Virus record (IMG/VR): IMGVR_UViG_3300047095_001310
Span: 1 to 29,344 of that record
Origin: a virus
Length of the DNA: 29,344 bases
Direction: 5' to 3' (one strand)
Under the pieces are notes generated by a model. That model was not told the DNA's origin. It searched no databases and saw only the letters and a list, made by a program, of their open reading frames with translations. The position numbers and the translations under genes are program-made. This document shows, in pieces, positions 10,432 to 20,492 of this stretch; the first letter of the stretch is position 1; every line of letters starts with the position of its first letter.

Positions 10432-11151
10432 ATGAATGCAAGTGTATATATAATAAAAAATTTAGTAAACAAAAAAGTTTATATAGGAAGCAGTGTAAAA
10501 GTGGAAAGAAGATTTTATGAGCATACAAGAAAATTAGATAAAAATATTCATATAAATCTTCATCTGCAAGCTGCTTGGAATAAATATAGTAAAAATAATT
10601 TTGAATTTAAAGTTATTTACACTATAAAAAAAGAATTAATAAGAAAAGCAGAACAATTTTTTATAAATAAATACCAAAGTTTAAATCCAAAATATGGATA
10701 TAACAAAACAGTTGTTATCAGTAATTGTTGGGATGATTTAAACATAAACAAAACACAAGAAAATAAATTTTACTTTGTGTGTTATGATAAAAATGGAATT
10801 ATAAAAAAAGTGTTTAAAACTATACAAGATGTTTATGATTTTTTAGGAGGTAGATATACCAGAATTTATGATGCCTGCAATAGTAATTTTTCAAAAACTT
10901 GTAAAAATTATTATTGGAGTAAAATAAATGTGACAAAAGATAAAATACCTTCTAAAATAATTCCTAAAAAAAGAAAAGGTAGACACAAACAATTGTATCA
11001 GTATGATTTAAACATGAATTTTATCAAAAATTGGTCTTGTGCTGCAGAAGCAGCGAGAGTTTTAAAATTAAGTTCTTTTAATATTACCAGATGTTTACGA
11101 AAAAATAATAAGTATAAAAATTTTTATTGGTTTTATAGCCCAGTTGTATAG
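10432..11151 (+). CDS. GIY-YIG homing endonuclease of intron 2
   Basis: This protein has 239 residues from ATG 10432. The GIY-YIG catalytic domain is at the N-terminus: SVYIIKNLVNKKVYIGSS carries the GIY and YIG elements, followed by the catalytic-type Arg in VERRFYEH. The conserved Glu is in KAEQFFINKY. A basic linker leads to a C-terminal NUMOD/IENR1-type DNA-binding helix-turn-helix (YQYDLNMNFIKNWSCAAEAA, then NITRCLRKNNKYKNFYW). The enzyme would cut the intron-less helicase gene near motif H3. The start was chosen because homology begins there; the frame is open further upstream through exon 1. The ORF ends in TAG before the ribozyme core, unlike the intron 1 ORF. Confidence 0.9.
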   Translation: MNASVYIIKNLVNKKVYIGSSVKVERRFYEHTRKLDKNIHINLHLQAAWNKYSKNNFEFKVIYTIKKELIRKAEQFFINKYQSLNPKYGYNKTVVISNCWDDLNINKTQENKFYFVCYDKNGIIKKVFKTIQDVYDFLGGRYTRIYDACNSNFSKTCKNYYWSKINVTKDKIPSKIIPKKRKGRHKQLYQYDLNMNFIKNWSCAAEAARVLKLSSFNITRCLRKNNKYKNFYWFYSPVV

Positions 11152-11391
11152 TAATATACAATTAAAAATATGGGAAGAATTGCTGGAAACCCTAAGTCTG
11201 AAAAGATATGGAAATCAGCAGCCGAGCTACTAACCATTTAGTAGAAGGTTCAGAGACTACTGGAGAGAAAATGGGTTCTCTTAATAACCAGATGTAGCAT
11301 CCCACTACCTAAAATCAGGTAGAAGATATAGTCCGAGCTTATAGGAAACTATAAGAAGTGAAAAAGAAAGATTTTCACGATAACAAAACTG

Positions 11392-14688: not shown

Positions 14689-15654
14689 ATGGAGTTTGAT
14701 ATCAGCATAACAAAAGATTTATTATTTTCTAAAGTTTCTCAGGAAGAGGTATTTGAAAAAATATTAGGAATTCAGGTAGTCTATAATAAAAAGATTATAA
14801 ATCCTCTGAGAAAAGATTTAAGACCTACCGTAAGTTTTAAGTGGTTTGGAGATACTCTGCTTATGGCAGATTATTCAGGTTGGTTTACAGGCAACTGTAT
14901 TCAGCTTGTAATGAAACTTAACTATTGCACTTACCAGGAAGCACTTAAATTTATTTATGATGATTTTAATTTGGCTATTGACAGAACTCCTAAAGATTAT
15001 TTAAAACCTGCTCCTGAGAGTACTTTATTTAAAGTATATACAGAGCCTCTTAATGATACACAACTTGCATGGTGGAATTCTTTTAAAATAACAAAAGATA
15101 TTCTTGACCTGTACGAAGTATCTAAGATAAGAGAAGCCCATATAAAGAAATATTCTTATTATTATTTTGACTCAGATCCAGGCTATCACTACACAGTCAG
15201 AGATTTACAGGGAGAGCCCAAAAGTAAATTGTATTTTCCCAACAGACAGGAATATAGGTTTTTCAGTAACATACCTAAAGACTCCTGGAATATTCAGGGA
15301 TTATTTCAATTGAAAACAGAAGCTACAGATTATCTGGTAATAACTAAATCTCTTAAAGATGTAATGGCTATGCACAGATTTGAGATACCTGCAATAGCAT
15401 TAAATTCAGAAAGTACTATGCTTTATGAGCCTGTACTTGAGTATTTAAGTAACCGCTATAGTAAAATCTATATCAATATGGATTATGATTATGCAGGTAT
15501 CAGAATGATGAATAAGTATAAAAGGAAAGGATTTCCTTTACTGTTCTTTGATAAAACCTATAGTCCTGTAAAGGACTTTGCAGACTATTGTAAATTAACC
15601 GATGAATTAACTATTAAACAATTTTTAAATAAAATAAAAAATGAGAACTATTAA
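14689..15654 (+). CDS. DnaG-like TOPRIM primase
   Basis: This 321-residue protein probably makes RNA primers with the DnaB-type helicase. The TOPRIM fold is seen in YLVITKSLKDVMAM (215-228), YINMDYDYAG (261-270, the DxDxxG metal motif) and SPVKDFADY (292-300). Residue 220 is Lys where TOPRIM enzymes usually have catalytic Glu. The N-terminal part (residues 38-95: NPLRKDLRPTVSFKW; GNCIQLVMKLNYCTYQEALK) resembles the zinc-binding domain region of DnaG, but without a full cysteine set. The start is forced because no other Met occurs before residue 59. It overlaps the ubiquitin-like gene by 14 bases. Confidence 0.82.
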   Translation: MEFDISITKDLLFSKVSQEEVFEKILGIQVVYNKKIINPLRKDLRPTVSFKWFGDTLLMADYSGWFTGNCIQLVMKLNYCTYQEALKFIYDDFNLAIDRTPKDYLKPAPESTLFKVYTEPLNDTQLAWWNSFKITKDILDLYEVSKIREAHIKKYSYYYFDSDPGYHYTVRDLQGEPKSKLYFPNRQEYRFFSNIPKDSWNIQGLFQLKTEATDYLVITKSLKDVMAMHRFEIPAIALNSESTMLYEPVLEYLSNRYSKIYINMDYDYAGIRMMNKYKRKGFPLLFFDKTYSPVKDFADYCKLTDELTIKQFLNKIKNENY

Positions 15655-16210
15655 GTTTGTAAATGACACAGGTTCACCTGTTCGTATTGAAGCCCCTGAA
15701 AATCTTACAGTAGGGCAATTTATTGAGCTTCTTGCTCAAAGAGAGAATGTATCTGTTAACCTCTCTAAAGTAGTATTGACTGAGCTTAAGTCTAAAGCTA
15801 TTTTTGCAACTGACAGTGCAATTCTTCCTGAAGGAGATTTAAGGCTGTTTACTACCATTAAAGATCCTAAGGGTAATGGTAAATTTGATGACCTTTCCCG
15901 TGGAGAACTTTACACTATTATCCGCACTATTCGCACAGTTGACGGAGAAAATGCTGATGAGCACTTTAATTCTTACGGTAACATCACTCAGGTATCAAGC
16001 TATATTCTGATTGAATTGCTTGATGAGTATGATTACACCAGAAAATCCCGTGCTGCAGTTAAAGAACTTCTTACAGGAAATGTAGAGTCTGTACGTCCTG
16101 CTGCTCCTAAAAAAACAGCAGCTTCTGCAGGATTAGATGAAGACCCTGATTTTGCAGCTTTACGTGCTGCCCAGAGTTCATTTAATCCATCATTAACCCG
16201 TAAGTCCTAA
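15641..16210 (+). CDS. Ubiquitin-like beta-grasp modifier candidate
   Basis: This 189-residue protein is the first gene of a cassette with E2-like, JAMM and E1-like genes. Residues 1-78 fit a ubiquitin-like beta-grasp: strand MRTIKFVNDTG, strand SPVRIEAPENLTVGQF, helix IELLAQRE, then strands KVVLTE, KSKAIF and LRLFTTIK. The next 60 residues form a helical extension. The C-terminus (PAAPKKTAASAG...) is flexible and ends in RKS without Gly-Gly, so either JAMM processing or a non-classical tail would be needed. PRTRC system protein C is a plausible relative. Arg codons are largely CGT/CGC and a terminator follows at once, indicating high, separate expression. The fold is inferred by eye and strengthened by context. 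Confidence 0.65.
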   Translation: MRTIKFVNDTGSPVRIEAPENLTVGQFIELLAQRENVSVNLSKVVLTELKSKAIFATDSAILPEGDLRLFTTIKDPKGNGKFDDLSRGELYTIIRTIRTVDGENADEHFNSYGNITQVSSYILIELLDEYDYTRKSRAAVKELLTGNVESVRPAAPKKTAASAGLDEDPDFAALRAAQSSFNPSLTRKS

Positions 16211-16213
16211 TTT

Positions 16214-16244
16214 AAGAGGGGGGAAATTAATCCCCCCTTTTTTT
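16214..16244 (+). terminator. Rho-independent terminator after the modifier gene
   Basis: The stem GGGGGGA with TCCCCCC is extended by A-T and G-U pairs, has a six-base loop and is followed by a T-run to 16244. It lies four bases after the modifier stop and twelve bases before the E2-like gene. It would reduce expression of the downstream enzymes relative to the modifier. Confidence 0.88.
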
Positions 16245-16256
16245 AATTTAATTATT

Positions 16257-17075
16257 ATGGATGTAAGAAAAGTATTAGAAGAACTTATAGAAAAAGACGG
16301 CTTAGATAATATTTCTCTGAATGATAATACTTTTACAGTATATTTTGGAGATGTATTAAACACAGAAACAGATACAGGAAACACTTATTATCTTTTAGAT
16401 ACTTATATAGAGTTTCCTTACACATTAAATCCCAGTATGGTAAAACTTCACAGAGGTATTGTTAATGAGTTTGAAACAGGTGGACCAGATTACCAATATG
16501 AGTATTCAGGATTTGTACATTATGGTTCAGGATTTTGTTGGGGTCAGTGCAGAGTAGATGCTATTTTACAAAATGCAATATTGGAAGATGCATTTACAGA
16601 TGATACTTATTATTCTCTGATACTTCATTTTCAGAACTATTTAGAAACATCTTCTCATGATTCAGGATCAAGAACTACTATGTATAAAAAACTTGATTTA
16701 CAGGATGTAATTACAGAAATTTATAATGTTCCTGTTTCTGTAAGAAACATAGACGGAATACCTTATATTTTTGAGTTTTCTGAAATAACTAAAATCAAAA
16801 ATAACTCAGCAATAGATTATTCTAAGCCTTATAAAAAAGTGCTTAAAAATTTTAATAACAAAGCTTTTGTATATAAGGGAAATACAATTATTCCCAAAGT
16901 AGTAGACCATTATACAATTGAAACAACAGAGATTAAAGTAACTCCTAAATTTCAGAATTTAGAAACTATACTATTTACCATAAATAATGAAAAATTTAAT
17001 TTGATAGAAAATGAAATTAATAATAAAAAAAGAATTACTTTCCAAGATTGCATACATCAACTCACAAATTCATAA
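16257..17075 (+). CDS. E2-like conjugating enzyme candidate (PRTRC-B-like)
   Basis: This 272-residue protein lies between the modifier and the JAMM gene. Residues 44-64 (YYLLDTYIEFPYTLNPSMVK) follow the E2 strand pattern ending in an FP-Y...P element. Residues 86-98 (FVHYGSGFCWGQC) place a Cys (C94) after a His (H88) and Gly-turn, as in the E2 'HPNV..G.iCL' active-site region. The helix YYSLILHFQNYLET follows, comparable to the helix after the catalytic loop. PRTRC system protein B has a similar 'DGSVCMGT' element as I remember it. The last 130 residues are unassigned. The E2 assignment is an inference from pattern and gene order. The gene overlaps the JAMM gene by 65 bases. Confidence 0.6.
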   Translation: MDVRKVLEELIEKDGLDNISLNDNTFTVYFGDVLNTETDTGNTYYLLDTYIEFPYTLNPSMVKLHRGIVNEFETGGPDYQYEYSGFVHYGSGFCWGQCRVDAILQNAILEDAFTDDTYYSLILHFQNYLETSSHDSGSRTTMYKKLDLQDVITEIYNVPVSVRNIDGIPYIFEFSEITKIKNNSAIDYSKPYKKVLKNFNNKAFVYKGNTIIPKVVDHYTIETTEIKVTPKFQNLETILFTINNEKFNLIENEINNKKRITFQDCIHQLTNS

Positions 17076-17271
17076 TATAGAATGGATGGGTGTGTTTGCT
17101 TACAAAGCTAAAGGCAAGTTTCCTTCTAACTTTGTAATGGAAGCAGTTGATGTATATCTTGTAGCTAAAGGTGTTTCTGCAGAAGTAGGCTACAAAGTTA
17201 CTGCAGATCTTATGGCTGATTTAGATGATGCTGGTCTTTTGGAAGAAGGAGTTTACAGAGGGCTTATACAT
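17011..17271 (+). CDS. JAMM/JAB metallopeptidase (DUB-like), exon 1
   Basis: This exon encodes residues 1-87. The catalytic Glu of the JAMM domain is E24 (HNIEWMGVFAY), and the exon ends with GLIH, where H87 is the first metal-binding His. Joined to exon 2 (18387-19103) it gives HSHHNMATNFSGTD, the canonical HxH...SxxD zinc-binding set (H87, H89, S97, D100), within a 325-residue protein. JAMM enzymes remove or process ubiquitin-like modifiers, which fits the neighbouring modifier, E2-like and E1-like genes. Unspliced RNA gives a stop two codons into the intron and a dead enzyme. Confidence 0.88.
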
Positions 17272-18386
17272 TTGTGAAAGAGTGTCATTAATCAGTAATG
17301 GTTAAAAGTAAACAGGATGAATTGTCTGGAAAGGGTACAGAAAGCCTCAATCAGCAGCCAAGCTATAAGTACACTTATAGAAGGTTCAACGACTACCTGG
17401 GCAGTACAGTCTGCTTAATAACAGGAAGTAGCTATTAGTAGTGTAATAGTGAAAAAGCGTCCTGCCCCTAATAATAGTTTATTAGGGTGAAGATATAGTC
17501 TGGTCTTGTATAATTTTCTGAAAAGAATTATGATTAATTCTATTTTGAATTTTATCATATTTTCTTTTTAAATAAAAGTTTAAATGATTATAACAATTTA
17601 AAAATTGAACAATTTGTTCTTTTTTACACAAGCTTAATATATAAGTTTTATTAAAAACTAAATTTTTTTGAATATTAAGATGATTTAAAATTCCAGTAAG
17701 AAGTTCTTTTGTGCCTCTTATTGAAATTTGAATACTATAAGATGGATAATATTTATTATTTGTTTTTTTAATTTTGCCTTTTGGTAATAAAACACTTCCA
17801 TCTCCATCAAAATATCCAATAATAAATGAATTTCTAAACTCATACGGAATGTTTTCTATAATATTTCCAATTGTTAAAGATTTACGACTAAAAATTCCTA
17901 AATTATTCAAATCTTGAATTAATTCAGGGTTTGATAAAGTAAATCTTATATGAGAAGTCATTTCATCAGAACCTTTATATAAAGGACGAACAATATTAAT
18001 AAGAGGTTTTTCACATCCTATTTCTCTTTTAAGAGTATCTAATATTTCTTTGTCTTTTTTATGAATAGTAATTGTTAAAGTATTTTTTACAATTCCTCCA
18101 TCTGCTGCAATAAAACCTAAAAAATAAGCTTTTAAAAAAGTATCTATATTTTGAAAATACCTTACATTTCCTTGATCAGGTCTAAATTTATACCCTAACT
18201 TATTACACATTTGTTGGGTAGAACAATAGACTAAATTAAGTAAACTAGATATTTCACTGGGAGTTTTACCTTCTTCTAAAAAAGATAAAATTTCTTTTTT
18301 AAAATTAGAAGGAATATTTTTGTTTTTCATTATAGATACTATTTATAATCATTGTAACGATAAAATAAAATACAAGTTACATTACG
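17272..18386 (+). mobile_element. Group I intron 3 (in the JAMM gene)
   Basis: This 1115-base intron follows a U-ending 5' exon (ACAT) and ends in G at 18386. In contrast to introns 1 and 2, the ribozyme core is in the 5' part: AATCAGCAGCC at 17349-17359, the 5' P7 strand in GAAGGTTCAACGACTA at 17380-17395 and the 3' P7 strand in GATATAGTC at 17492-17500. The rest is an antisense endonuclease ORF located in a peripheral 3' loop. An alternative 3' site at 18389 would also keep frame but would give HHH instead of HSH, so 18386 is preferred. Confidence 0.9.
17482..18330 (-). CDS. LAGLIDADG homing endonuclease, antisense within intron 3
   Basis: This 282-residue single-chain enzyme has two LAGLIDADG helices, FLGFIAADGG (70-79) and FIIGYFDGDGS (169-179). 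Each ends in the catalytic acidic residue. The N-terminus (FKKEILSFLEEGKTPSEISS) looks like a helix-turn-helix. It would cleave the intron-less JAMM gene near its HxH codons. It is encoded on the strand opposite to the intron, so it cannot be translated from the host-gene transcript and needs its own promoter, near 18340-18400 on the - strand. Its last residues (QDQTISSP) are read from the complement of the ribozyme 3' P7 strand. Confidence 0.93.
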   Translation of the reverse strand: MKNKNIPSNFKKEILSFLEEGKTPSEISSLLNLVYCSTQQMCNKLGYKFRPDQGNVRYFQNIDTFLKAYFLGFIAADGGIVKNTLTITIHKKDKEILDTLKREIGCEKPLINIVRPLYKGSDEMTSHIRFTLSNPELIQDLNNLGIFSRKSLTIGNIIENIPYEFRNSFIIGYFDGDGSVLLPKGKIKKTNNKYYPSYSIQISIRGTKELLTGILNHLNIQKNLVFNKTYILSLCKKEQIVQFLNCYNHLNFYLKRKYDKIQNRINHNSFQKIIQDQTISSP

Positions 18387-19103
18387 TCGCATCATAATAT
18401 GGCTACTAACTTTTCAGGTACAGATTATGAACAGTTGAAACTTGCATGTCAGAGTAATCCGTATTATCTTTCTGTAGTGGTAAATAATGTTTTAGATTTT
18501 ACAGCTAAAGTAGCTATTGAGTCTAAAGAAGTTCTTAACGGCTACAGTTATTTTAAAACTCCCAACAATAAAGAAGTAAAAACTCCCAAGACTTATACAA
18601 AAAACAGTTATGAAATTATAGAAGTAGAGATAGAGTGCCATTGGCCTGAGTATATGTTGCAGACAGATGCCCAGATAAAAAGTATTCAAAGCTATTCTCC
18701 TACTCCGTCTTATAACAATTCTGCAGGTTATTCTCATAATCAGGGATGGAAATCTCAACAAAGAAACAGTTGGGAATTATTTCCTGAAAGTTATTATCAG
18801 CCTTCATCAGTTCCTGCCTCAAAGCCTGCAGAAAAACCTAAAGATATAGAAGTATTGACTTTGGAAGAAGAAGAATATGAACTCTGCAGTCAGCATCTGG
18901 CTATTGTTATAGAGTCTTTAAAGCTACAAAATCTTAAATATAAAGAATTTGCAGATGCTTTACTGGAGACCTGTTCTGAAGTAGGTATTCCCGTAGAAAT
19001 TATGTGGGAATATATTGTAACGGAAGAAATGGTTAATGATAAATTTGATAACCAGGTTGTAGAATATTTAGAACCTATTGTATATAAAGAAGATAACAAA
19101 TGA
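18387..19103 (+). CDS. JAMM/JAB metallopeptidase (DUB-like), exon 2
   Basis: This exon starts TCG CAT CAT AAT and encodes residues 88-325. It supplies the second metal His (H89) and the SxxD part of the motif (S97, D100 in FSGTD). The following strand YLSVVVNNVLDFTAKVAI is typical of the JAB core. Residues about 195-245 form a Ser/Pro/Asn-rich linker, and the C-terminal 80 residues form a helical, acidic extension of unknown role, perhaps for partner binding. The ATG at 18399 lies after both His codons and would give an inactive protein. The stop overlaps the E1-like start (ATGA). Confidence 0.88.
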   Translation, partial: SHHNMATNFSGTDYEQLKLACQSNPYYLSVVVNNVLDFTAKVAIESKEVLNGYSYFKTPNNKEVKTPKTYTKNSYEIIEVEIECHWPEYMLQTDAQIKSIQSYSPTPSYNNSAGYSHNQGWKSQQRNSWELFPESYYQPSSVPASKPAEKPKDIEVLTLEEEEYELCSQHLAIVIESLKLQNLKYKEFADALLETCSEVGIPVEIMWEYIVTEEMVNDKFDNQVVEYLEPIVYKEDNK

Positions 19104-19792
19104 GTACAGTACAAACAAGATTTGAAGGAGCTTCCTGGTATAAATTAATGAAAAATCAATCTGCTTATATCGGGGGAGTAGGAGCTACAGGTTCTTTTTT
19201 TGCTTTCTTTTTGGCAAGAACAGGTGTTTATAATATTACATTAGTTGATCCAGATACATTTGAAGCACATAATGTAGGTTCCCAATTAGTTTCTTATGAT
19301 TCTATAGGAACTCTAAAAGTAGAAGCAGTAAGAAATTTTCTTACTAAGTATGCATCTGTTCCTTATATAAACACAGCTGCAACCAGATTTGAAGAATCAA
19401 TAAATTATTCTTTCAGAACTGCAAGTATAATAGTATCTACTACAGATTCTATGACTGCAAGAAAAGCTATGTTTGAAGCATTTTTAACAGGTTATCAAAA
19501 AGATGCTATTTTTATTGATACAAGAATTTCTGCAGAATATTGGGAAGTATTTGCCGTTACTAAAAATAATCAAAGTGCCATAGACAGATACAAAGAAACT
19601 TTGTTTGATGACTCTCAGGGAAATACGGGAGCATGTAACTATCAGCAATCTTCTCACTCTGCTGCAGGAGCAGCTATTCAGGGTGTAGAATTAATTACTA
19701 ACCATCTTAACAACATTTTAATGGAAGATGATTATCTTCCTTTTAAATGTTCTAAAGATTTAAGAACACAAAATTACAATGTTATCTATTAA
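19100..19792 (+). CDS. ThiF/E1-like modifier-activating enzyme
   Basis: This 230-residue Rossmann-fold adenylyltransferase contains the nucleotide-binding GGVGATGS loop (25-32), LVDPDTFEAHNVGSQ with D50 and N58, K73 (IGTLK), and a later STTDSMTAR segment (D116, R121). These match the ThiF/MoeB/E1 family. Such enzymes adenylate the C-terminus of a ubiquitin-like protein and pass it to a thiol. There is no zinc-binding CxxC pair. C179 in GNTGACNYQ is a possible thioester Cys. It is shorter than most E1 enzymes, close in size to PRTRC ThiF proteins. It is co-translated with the JAMM gene. Confidence 0.9.
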   Translation: MSTVQTRFEGASWYKLMKNQSAYIGGVGATGSFFAFFLARTGVYNITLVDPDTFEAHNVGSQLVSYDSIGTLKVEAVRNFLTKYASVPYINTAATRFEESINYSFRTASIIVSTTDSMTARKAMFEAFLTGYQKDAIFIDTRISAEYWEVFAVTKNNQSAIDRYKETLFDDSQGNTGACNYQQSSHSAAGAAIQGVELITNHLNNILMEDDYLPFKCSKDLRTQNYNVIY

Positions 19793-20492
19793 AAATAAAT
19801 TTCAGTTGTTTATTCCTGCAAATAAGAATGAAGTATCTTTGCAAAACATAAATACTATTACTTATACTATTAAAAGAAAAACTTCTGCATTGATAGACAA
19901 TTTAACAAGCTATGCTTCAAATTCACAAATTAAGTTTATAGCAAGTGATACAGAGTTAAAATATATCAAAGGTAGAGTTTATGATTCACAAAACAGATTA
20001 GTGGGAGGTTGGTTTCAGTTAAATCCTGTTATTAAAGATTTTCTTGAAATGTATAATTTTGAAAGTCAGGCTATTTTTCTTTTTAATAAAGATTTGCTTT
20101 CAGATAAAGCAGTTAAATATCTTAACAGTGTTTATGCTAATTATAACAGTTGTCCGTTAAGCAATGTTCTTTTTAAAATGTTAACTGATACTGATTTAAA
20201 ACCTTTAAAAGACAATTTACCTCCTGAAATTATAGAACAATTAGTTAATAATTGGGCAGCAGGATTAAATTTAATCCCGGGAAGTTGGGAATATAGTCCT
20301 GAAAACGGTATTAAATTTAACAAAACACCAGAAGAAGTTCTTAATGAAGTAAGAGAAGGAACTATACAAGAGTCTGTTGTTCAGGAAGAAACTGAAACTT
20401 TACAATCTATTACCATACGGGTAGATCAGTTTTTAGAGGAAGAAGAAGATGAGCCAGAGTATGTAGACCATCCTGACAATCCTGTTTTCTGA
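19779..20492 (+). CDS. Hypothetical protein downstream of the E1-like gene
   Basis: This is a 237-residue protein overlapping the E1-like gene by 14 bases. The N-terminal half has several strands (FQLFIPANKNEVSLQNINTI; QIKFIASDTELKYIKGRVYD). The middle is helical, and the C-terminus is strongly acidic (FLEEEEDEPEYVDHPDNPVF). No catalytic motif is seen. Its overlap with the cassette makes it a candidate substrate, adaptor or accessory for the ubiquitin-like system, but nothing in its sequence proves that. Confidence 0.7.
   Translation: MLSIKNKFQLFIPANKNEVSLQNINTITYTIKRKTSALIDNLTSYASNSQIKFIASDTELKYIKGRVYDSQNRLVGGWFQLNPVIKDFLEMYNFESQAIFLFNKDLLSDKAVKYLNSVYANYNSCPLSNVLFKMLTDTDLKPLKDNLPPEIIEQLVNNWAAGLNLIPGSWEYSPENGIKFNKTPEEVLNEVREGTIQESVVQEETETLQSITIRVDQFLEEEEDEPEYVDHPDNPVF

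Follow-up and report, generated by a model that had tools for sequence, protein, structure and literature searches.

A virus record of 29,344 bases (IMG/VR record IMGVR_UViG_3300047095_001310, positions 1 to 29,344; analysed at its full length and called the window here) was found to carry a replication module, with PolA, DnaB, Sak4-like, helicase, exonuclease, MazG-like and primase genes, and a block of four genes placed after the primase gene. We read this block as a phage-encoded ubiquitin-like (Ubl) conjugation cassette in the replication module of crAss-like phages and their relatives, encoding in order a Ubl modifier, an E2-like protein, a JAMM peptidase and an E1-like ThiF protein, and we give this reading a probability of about 0.7. 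Our best reading is also that the cassette is reversible, capable of both tagging and removal, and that it works as a part of the phage replication module. An earlier sequence-only reading of the same DNA had proposed these four consecutive genes, and the open reading frames for all of them were found where it had placed them (Table 1).

A conserved four-gene block in crAss-like phages

The window's E1 matched the ThiF genes of phiCrAss001, DAC15, Kolpuevirus, uncultured crAss-like phages and Flavobacterium Fpv phages. In phiCrAss001, the block reads primase, Gp79, Gp78, Gp77 (annotated as a metalloprotease) and Gp76 (annotated as thiamine biosynthesis), and the Flavobacterium Fpv phages carry the same four genes adjoining a toprim gene and UDG. 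A first search for relatives with the window's E1 alone returned none; a search of IMG/VR with an E1 profile found 79 loci, several of them copies of one phage. Modifier, E2-like, JAMM and E1 genes stood in this order and on one strand in all 70 loci with enough upstream DNA, with phiCrAss001 (gp79-76), DAC15 and Flavobacterium Fpv phages among these loci, confirming the four-gene arrangement. Since E1 alone was used to pick the loci, the presence of the other three genes is independent of the selection. A scan of cellular genomes gave three matches only, all on short contigs of metagenome-assembled genomes, and these are perhaps stray phage. Between the window and its relative L010, the ratio of nonsynonymous to synonymous substitution rates (dN/dS) was about 0.33, 0.33, 0.14 and 0.32 for the modifier, E2-like, JAMM and E1 genes, with synonymous sites partly saturated, indicating that all four are under purifying selection. 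The recurrence of one order in all 70 loci, together with this selection, argues that the association is not due to chance.

Further information came from cr116_1 (L092), an uncultured crAss-like phage with JAMM and ThiF absent from the whole 101 kb. The slot between its primase and UDG genes is occupied by rIIA/rIIB (L092 2530-6994), and all that is retained is the tail domain of the modifier (82 residues, E 1.6e-14), the Ubl domain and the E2 being absent. That the four parts of the conjugation set, and only they, were lost together, as seen with the rII exchange in this one genome, argues for one working unit and for a tail domain with its own role. In cr116_1, rIIA is in turn split by an intron-like stretch that includes an endonuclease gene.

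The modifier, the peptidase and the activating enzyme

An AlphaFold2 model of the window's 189-residue modifier, built with 60 relatives, had a mean predicted local distance difference test score (pLDDT) of 84 and showed a beta-beta-alpha-beta-beta arrangement over residues 1-73 (strands 2-7, 13-18, 44-48 and 67-73, helix 24-35). Foldseek matched this model to ISG15, Hub1, NEDD8, SUMO, ubiquitin and Caldiarchaeum ubiquitin in the PDB, with E values of 1e-4 to 9e-4 and a template modelling (TM) score of 0.75 on the target for NEDD8. The beta-grasp candidate of the sequence-only reading is therefore predicted to have a ubiquitin fold in residues 1-78, and the lack of such a fold, which was half of what had been set beforehand to count against that reading, was not observed. 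Moreover, the window's protein matched a family profile built without it and without its closest relative (E 1e-10). The remainder of the protein formed a separate helical domain in the model, and its resemblance to SAP/HeH domains is an impression only. Searches of PDB sequences with the modifier and E2-like profiles gave nothing significant, and Pfam, NCBIfam and PHROG scans named no usable function for either family.

The alignment column where the Ubl domain ends is Gly in 58 of 60 relatives, most of which read K-I-K-S-G. Three stand-alone modifier genes stop one to three residues past this Gly (KSG-NKN in L012, AAG-H in L072 and AAG-Y in L077), and by sequence these short-tailed proteins look like ubiquitin-like precursors. 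In cr106_1 (L013 2153-3425), the Ubl domain has a short tail of the same kind, ending in KSG-KF; an HNH endonuclease gene placed exactly at the boundary parts it from the tail domain, so that the two are separate genes.

The JAMM residues E24, H87, H89, S97 and D100 named by the sequence-only reading were present only after splicing, which had been no part of that reading. The JAMM frame is cut at 17271, and joining 17271 to 18387 gave an open protein of 325 residues with GLIHSHHNMATNFSGTD. A short-range Rfam scan identified the interruption as a group I intron (RF00028, 71.4 bits, E 7.5e-18, core 17262-17520), inserted between the H and SH codons of the JAMM motif, that is, between H87 and S88. 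The relative L091 has no intron and carries an uninterrupted JAMM gene with the same motif; this comparison of sequences confirmed the joined reading, and a broken JAMM gene was rejected. Eight other loci also have an interruption within this motif: in six it falls at these codons or very close to them, in L018 and L058 a few codons further on. Rfam detected a group I intron at the JAMM gene in L010, L015, L018, L024 and L067. Homing introns favour codons that cannot vary, and an intron at these codons fits an essential JAMM active site. The E, H, H, S and D of the motif were invariant in 54 of 54 relatives; the pattern E ... HxH-x7-S-x2-D expected of the family was found, intact in the window once spliced. 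Prok-JAB matched 51 of the 54, mostly weakly, and the JAMM profile gave nothing significant against PDB sequences, with weak CSN5 matches only.

The last gene was clear from domain searches: the window's E1 matched Pfam ThiF with 9.4e-18 and 64.7 bits (cut-off 28.1 bits), its residues G26, G28, D50, K73, D116 and C179 were kept in 46 of 46 proteins, and the family profile matched UBA5, ThiF and MoeB structures. This bore out the proposal of an E1-like ThiF protein with GGVGATGS, D50 and K73, and by sequence the protein has the features of the E1 class (ThiF domain, GxG, Asp, Lys and the Mg Asp).

Table 1. Features of the cassette and its flanks in the window
Feature	Position	Strand	Remarks
Modifier precursor, 189 residues	15641..16210	+	ubiquitin-fold domain predicted for residues 1 to about 78, plus helical tail domain
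Predicted end of Ubl domain, KDPKGNGK	15866..15880	+	terminal Gly would be G78 or G80
E2-like protein, 272 residues	16257..17075	+	putative catalytic Cys94, codon 16536-16538; His88 upstream
JAMM peptidase exon 1, residues 1-87 (E24, H87)	17011..17271	+	open frame, splice junction, Prok-JAB in relatives
Group I intron within JAMM motif, H87/S88 boundary	17272..18386	+	Rfam RF00028; intronless relative L091
LAGLIDADG homing endonuclease gene, antisense within intron	17482..18330	-	Pfam LAGLIDADG_3 5.5e-10; phrog_4645 endonuclease 5.6e-42
JAMM peptidase exon 2 (S88, H89, S97, D100, C-terminal region)	18387..19103	+	joined frame; conserved residues
E1-like ThiF-fold enzyme, 230 residues (G26, G28, D50, K73, D116, C179; GGVGATGS)	19100..19792	+	Pfam ThiF
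Fifth gene by position, possible cassette partner	19779..20492	+	gene after E1 in other loci
Flanking DNA primase (TOPRIM)	14689..15654	+	phrog_12622 DNA primase 1.8e-30; same flank in phiCrAss001

Two further group I introns were found in the window, making three in 29 kb. One, at 1748-1987, lies between the parts 795-1052 and 2052-2639 of a radical-SAM gene that is intact in L091, and the other, at 11121-11355, lies in DnaB and adjoins a GIY-YIG endonuclease. A default scan of the full window at the Rfam gathering cut-off listed none of these introns, though all three exceed that cut-off in short-range scans.

The E2-like protein and the proposed scheme

The 272-residue protein is supported as an E2 only indirectly, by an invariant Cys, by the topology of the phiCrAss001 Gp78 model, by a profile match to PRTRC-B and by its position. 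The residue proposed from sequence alone, C94, corresponds to a Cys invariant in 61 of 61 homologues, and a His upstream of it is kept in 60 of 61. The model of Gp78, which served as the query for the family, had a pLDDT of 86 and consisted of a helix, four strands, HSH (180-182), C198 and then helices. The invariant Cys falls after the predicted fourth strand, as does the catalytic Cys of E2/UBC, and this modelled topology, alpha-beta4-(His..Cys)-alpha, is the order expected of a UBC fold. Among PRTRC profiles, the best partner of the family was PRTRC-B (Prok-E2_D, a name shown for one relative), with E 0.008 and Cys aligned on Cys; the score of 26.5 compares with 22.8 for the best of 400 column shuffles and 12.2 for the reversed profile. 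The window's own copy appears to belong to this family by its position, its His88 and Cys94, and a modest match of the window triple in profile comparison (E 2.9e-4, against 0.05-0.8 for unrelated window proteins). Several loci (L073 2218-4695, L038, L052 and L080) have the E2-like gene in pieces, with a group I intron in the L073 gap.

In the scheme that we propose, the JAMM protease would trim the modifier precursor after the Gly ending the ubiquitin fold, releasing the helical tail, and the ThiF-type E1 would adenylate that Gly. Next, the Ubl would move from the E1, probably by way of its invariant Cys179, onto the E2-like protein at the invariant Cys there; the E2-like protein would attach it to a lysine or another nucleophile of the target, and the JAMM protease could take the modifier off again. 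The target would be a protein inside the cell, of the host or of the phage, at the time of genome replication, in host takeover or counter-defence; since the cassette sits among replication genes, an intracellular target is likelier than a part of the virion. The data do not separate host takeover, counter-defence and maintenance of the phage's own DNA.

Several observations weigh against a conjugation cassette. When the confident Gp78 family model was searched with Foldseek, no solved E2 in the PDB was matched, and among viral models only family members and no viral E2 were returned. None of the E2 families of Pfam and NCBIfam matched any of the 61 members. The family profile built without the window's copy missed it, and this copy is divergent, the second His of HSH being missing. 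Moreover, the window's lineage reads KDPKG-N where most relatives have K-I-K-S-G, and L010 shares the KG-N of the window. We know of no ligase, target or conjugate for the cassette, and we infer every chemical step of the scheme, including E2 activity, the cleavage site of the modifier and conjugation itself, from the components. As a whole, the interpretation as a Ubl cassette was supported, with its modifier, JAMM and E1 parts holding and its E2 part the weakest: the conserved C94 stood, aligned with the Cys of PRTRC-B, and an E2 match to the family model was not obtained.

Known systems and alternative functions

The PRTRC plasmid cassette matches the phage block in its four component types and in their order (C-[F]-B-A-ThiF in PRTRC), a resemblance already seen from sequence alone that held for both order and component types: the order C-B-A-ThiF was found in 70 of 70 phage loci when compared with PRTRC plasmids. 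The phage E1 profile matched PRTRC-ThiF (1.3e-17), the JAMM profile matched PRTRC-A (7e-7), and no off-diagonal pair matched. With the PRTRC-B match of the E2-like family and the replication genes next to the cassette, these results make it a possible, if not the favoured, explanation that the block is a phage branch of PRTRC-type systems, that is, the same machine, serving to replicate or maintain the DNA of the element that carries it and not to act against the host. However, none of the phage members reached the PRTRC cut-offs (TIGR03735/03736/03737), with 12.6 against 101.8 bits for A, 24.4 and 38.3 against 144.75 bits for ThiF, and none in 61 members for PRTRC-B. The phage Ubl did not match the PRTRC-C profile (0.65), PRTRC proteins E and F had no match in the profile comparison, and ParB was not found among the neighbours, as judged from annotation only. 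Unlike PRTRC, the phage cassette lies in a phage replication module and its modifier has a C-terminal helical tail. From these comparisons of sequence we regard it as PRTRC-like on paper and have not filed it as PRTRC.

In 72 of 90 loci, E1 is followed by a gene of one and the same family, and this conserved fifth gene is a possible ligase, substrate or regulator. The window's own fifth gene matched the profile of this family with E 0.044, a value that does not establish membership. A relationship of the fifth gene to PRTRC E or F was rejected by profile comparison.

The Bil antiviral system shares the component types Ubl, E2, JAMM and E1 with the phage cassette, and to this extent the likeness proposed from sequence alone stood; its specific features did not recur. 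BilA has two Ubl domains, BilB a CEHH motif, and BilD both an inactive and an active adenylation domain (PMC11354881). The phage modifier has one Ubl domain instead of two, the phage E2-like Cys is followed by xGxGPI... with no E/H pattern, and the phage E1 is one adenylation unit of 230 residues with a single ThiF domain, whereas BilD is a two-part E1 with a Cys domain. Moreover, Bil is carried by the host and the cassette by the phage. With three Bil features absent, membership was rejected. The best PADLOC relative of the phage E1 was the CBASS/Bub E1 domain (1e-15), but E1 and E2 are fused there and separate in the phage, where the genes are phage-borne with no CD-NTase alongside, and CBASS membership was likewise rejected.

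Outside the group, the nearest E1 was that of the Xanthomonas PhiXhv and Erwinia Ep032 jumbo phages (1.8e-29). In Xanthomonas phage PhiXhv-12 (L097 2802-6678), we observed a protein ending in KASGG, an 892-residue Cys-rich protein with IHPH..SLCLGS and a ThiF protein. This cluster differs by its 892-residue E2-like candidate, by having no JAMM in a motif search and by its other phage type; by sequence it looks like another phage Ubl-E2-E1 set, and phage Ubl systems may extend beyond the group described here.

A second explanation is counter-defence, in which the cassette would tag a component of the host's defences, e.g., a Bil, Bub or CBASS E1-E2-JAB of the host, or would serve as its decoy. 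The rII genes of T4 serve to overcome exclusion, and in cr116_1 the rII pair occupies the cassette's slot; moreover, Bil-like systems are present in Bacteroides hosts (PMC12135933). However, the rII exchange was seen in a single genome, and a cassette that is near-universal in its phage group is more core-like than a patchy counter-defence gene, making this function rather unlikely.

We consider it improbable that the Ubl is a sulfur carrier of the ThiS/MoaD type, whose thiocarboxylate would donate sulfur; the E2-like protein would then be an acceptor or an enzyme, and the JAMM peptidase would serve maturation only. The E1 is ThiF-like, and clusters of JAMM, ThiS/MoaD-like and E1 genes are known in sulfur metabolism (PMC1779556), but no rhodanese, SirA or sulfur gene was found in the block, the E2-like protein with its invariant Cys is always present, and Foldseek places the Ubl with ubiquitin and NEDD8. 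Still more improbable is a decaying or changed system in the window's lineage: the modifier there retains only KG-N and the E2-like protein has lost most of HSH, but dN/dS was 0.14-0.33 across the four genes, the Cys, the first His and the JAMM and E1 residues are retained, and the changes are common to three related phages. The least credible explanation is virion maturation or tail assembly after the lambda precedent of TAPI (Ubl) adjoining TAPK (JAB-NlpC) (PMC1779556), for unlike that pair, to which membership was rejected, the cassette has E1 and E2-like genes and no NlpC/P60 that we found, and lies in the replication module outside the tail genes, while the text of the phiCrAss001 structural atlas makes no mention of gp76-79.

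In open full texts and the main crAss papers, we found nothing on ubiquitin-like genes of crAss-like phages, supplements and subscription journals lying outside the search; the cassette is thus without earlier description in the literature searched, and prior notice is possible. Taking the conjugation cassette as the preferred reading, we hold the chances to be about even that crAss-like phages run their own full and reversible Ubl pathway as a core function of the replication stage, modifying host or phage proteins, with a Ubl-tail precursor cut by its own JAMM and with a new E2 family. What is otherwise known of Ubl conjugation in bacteria comes mainly from anti-phage defence systems and from plasmid cassettes of unclear use; if our reading is true, the pathway belongs to the phage itself and is conserved within its replication module, in a group that includes the most abundant human gut viruses. 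The block has gone mostly unrecognised in cultured phages (phiCrAss001, DAC15 and Flavobacterium Fpv), whose annotations give its genes no more than the labels hypothetical, metalloprotease or thiamine biosynthesis. The cassette would offer a second setting for learning the role of PRTRC, and its cultured carriers would make it directly testable what a bacterial virus tags with a Ubl.

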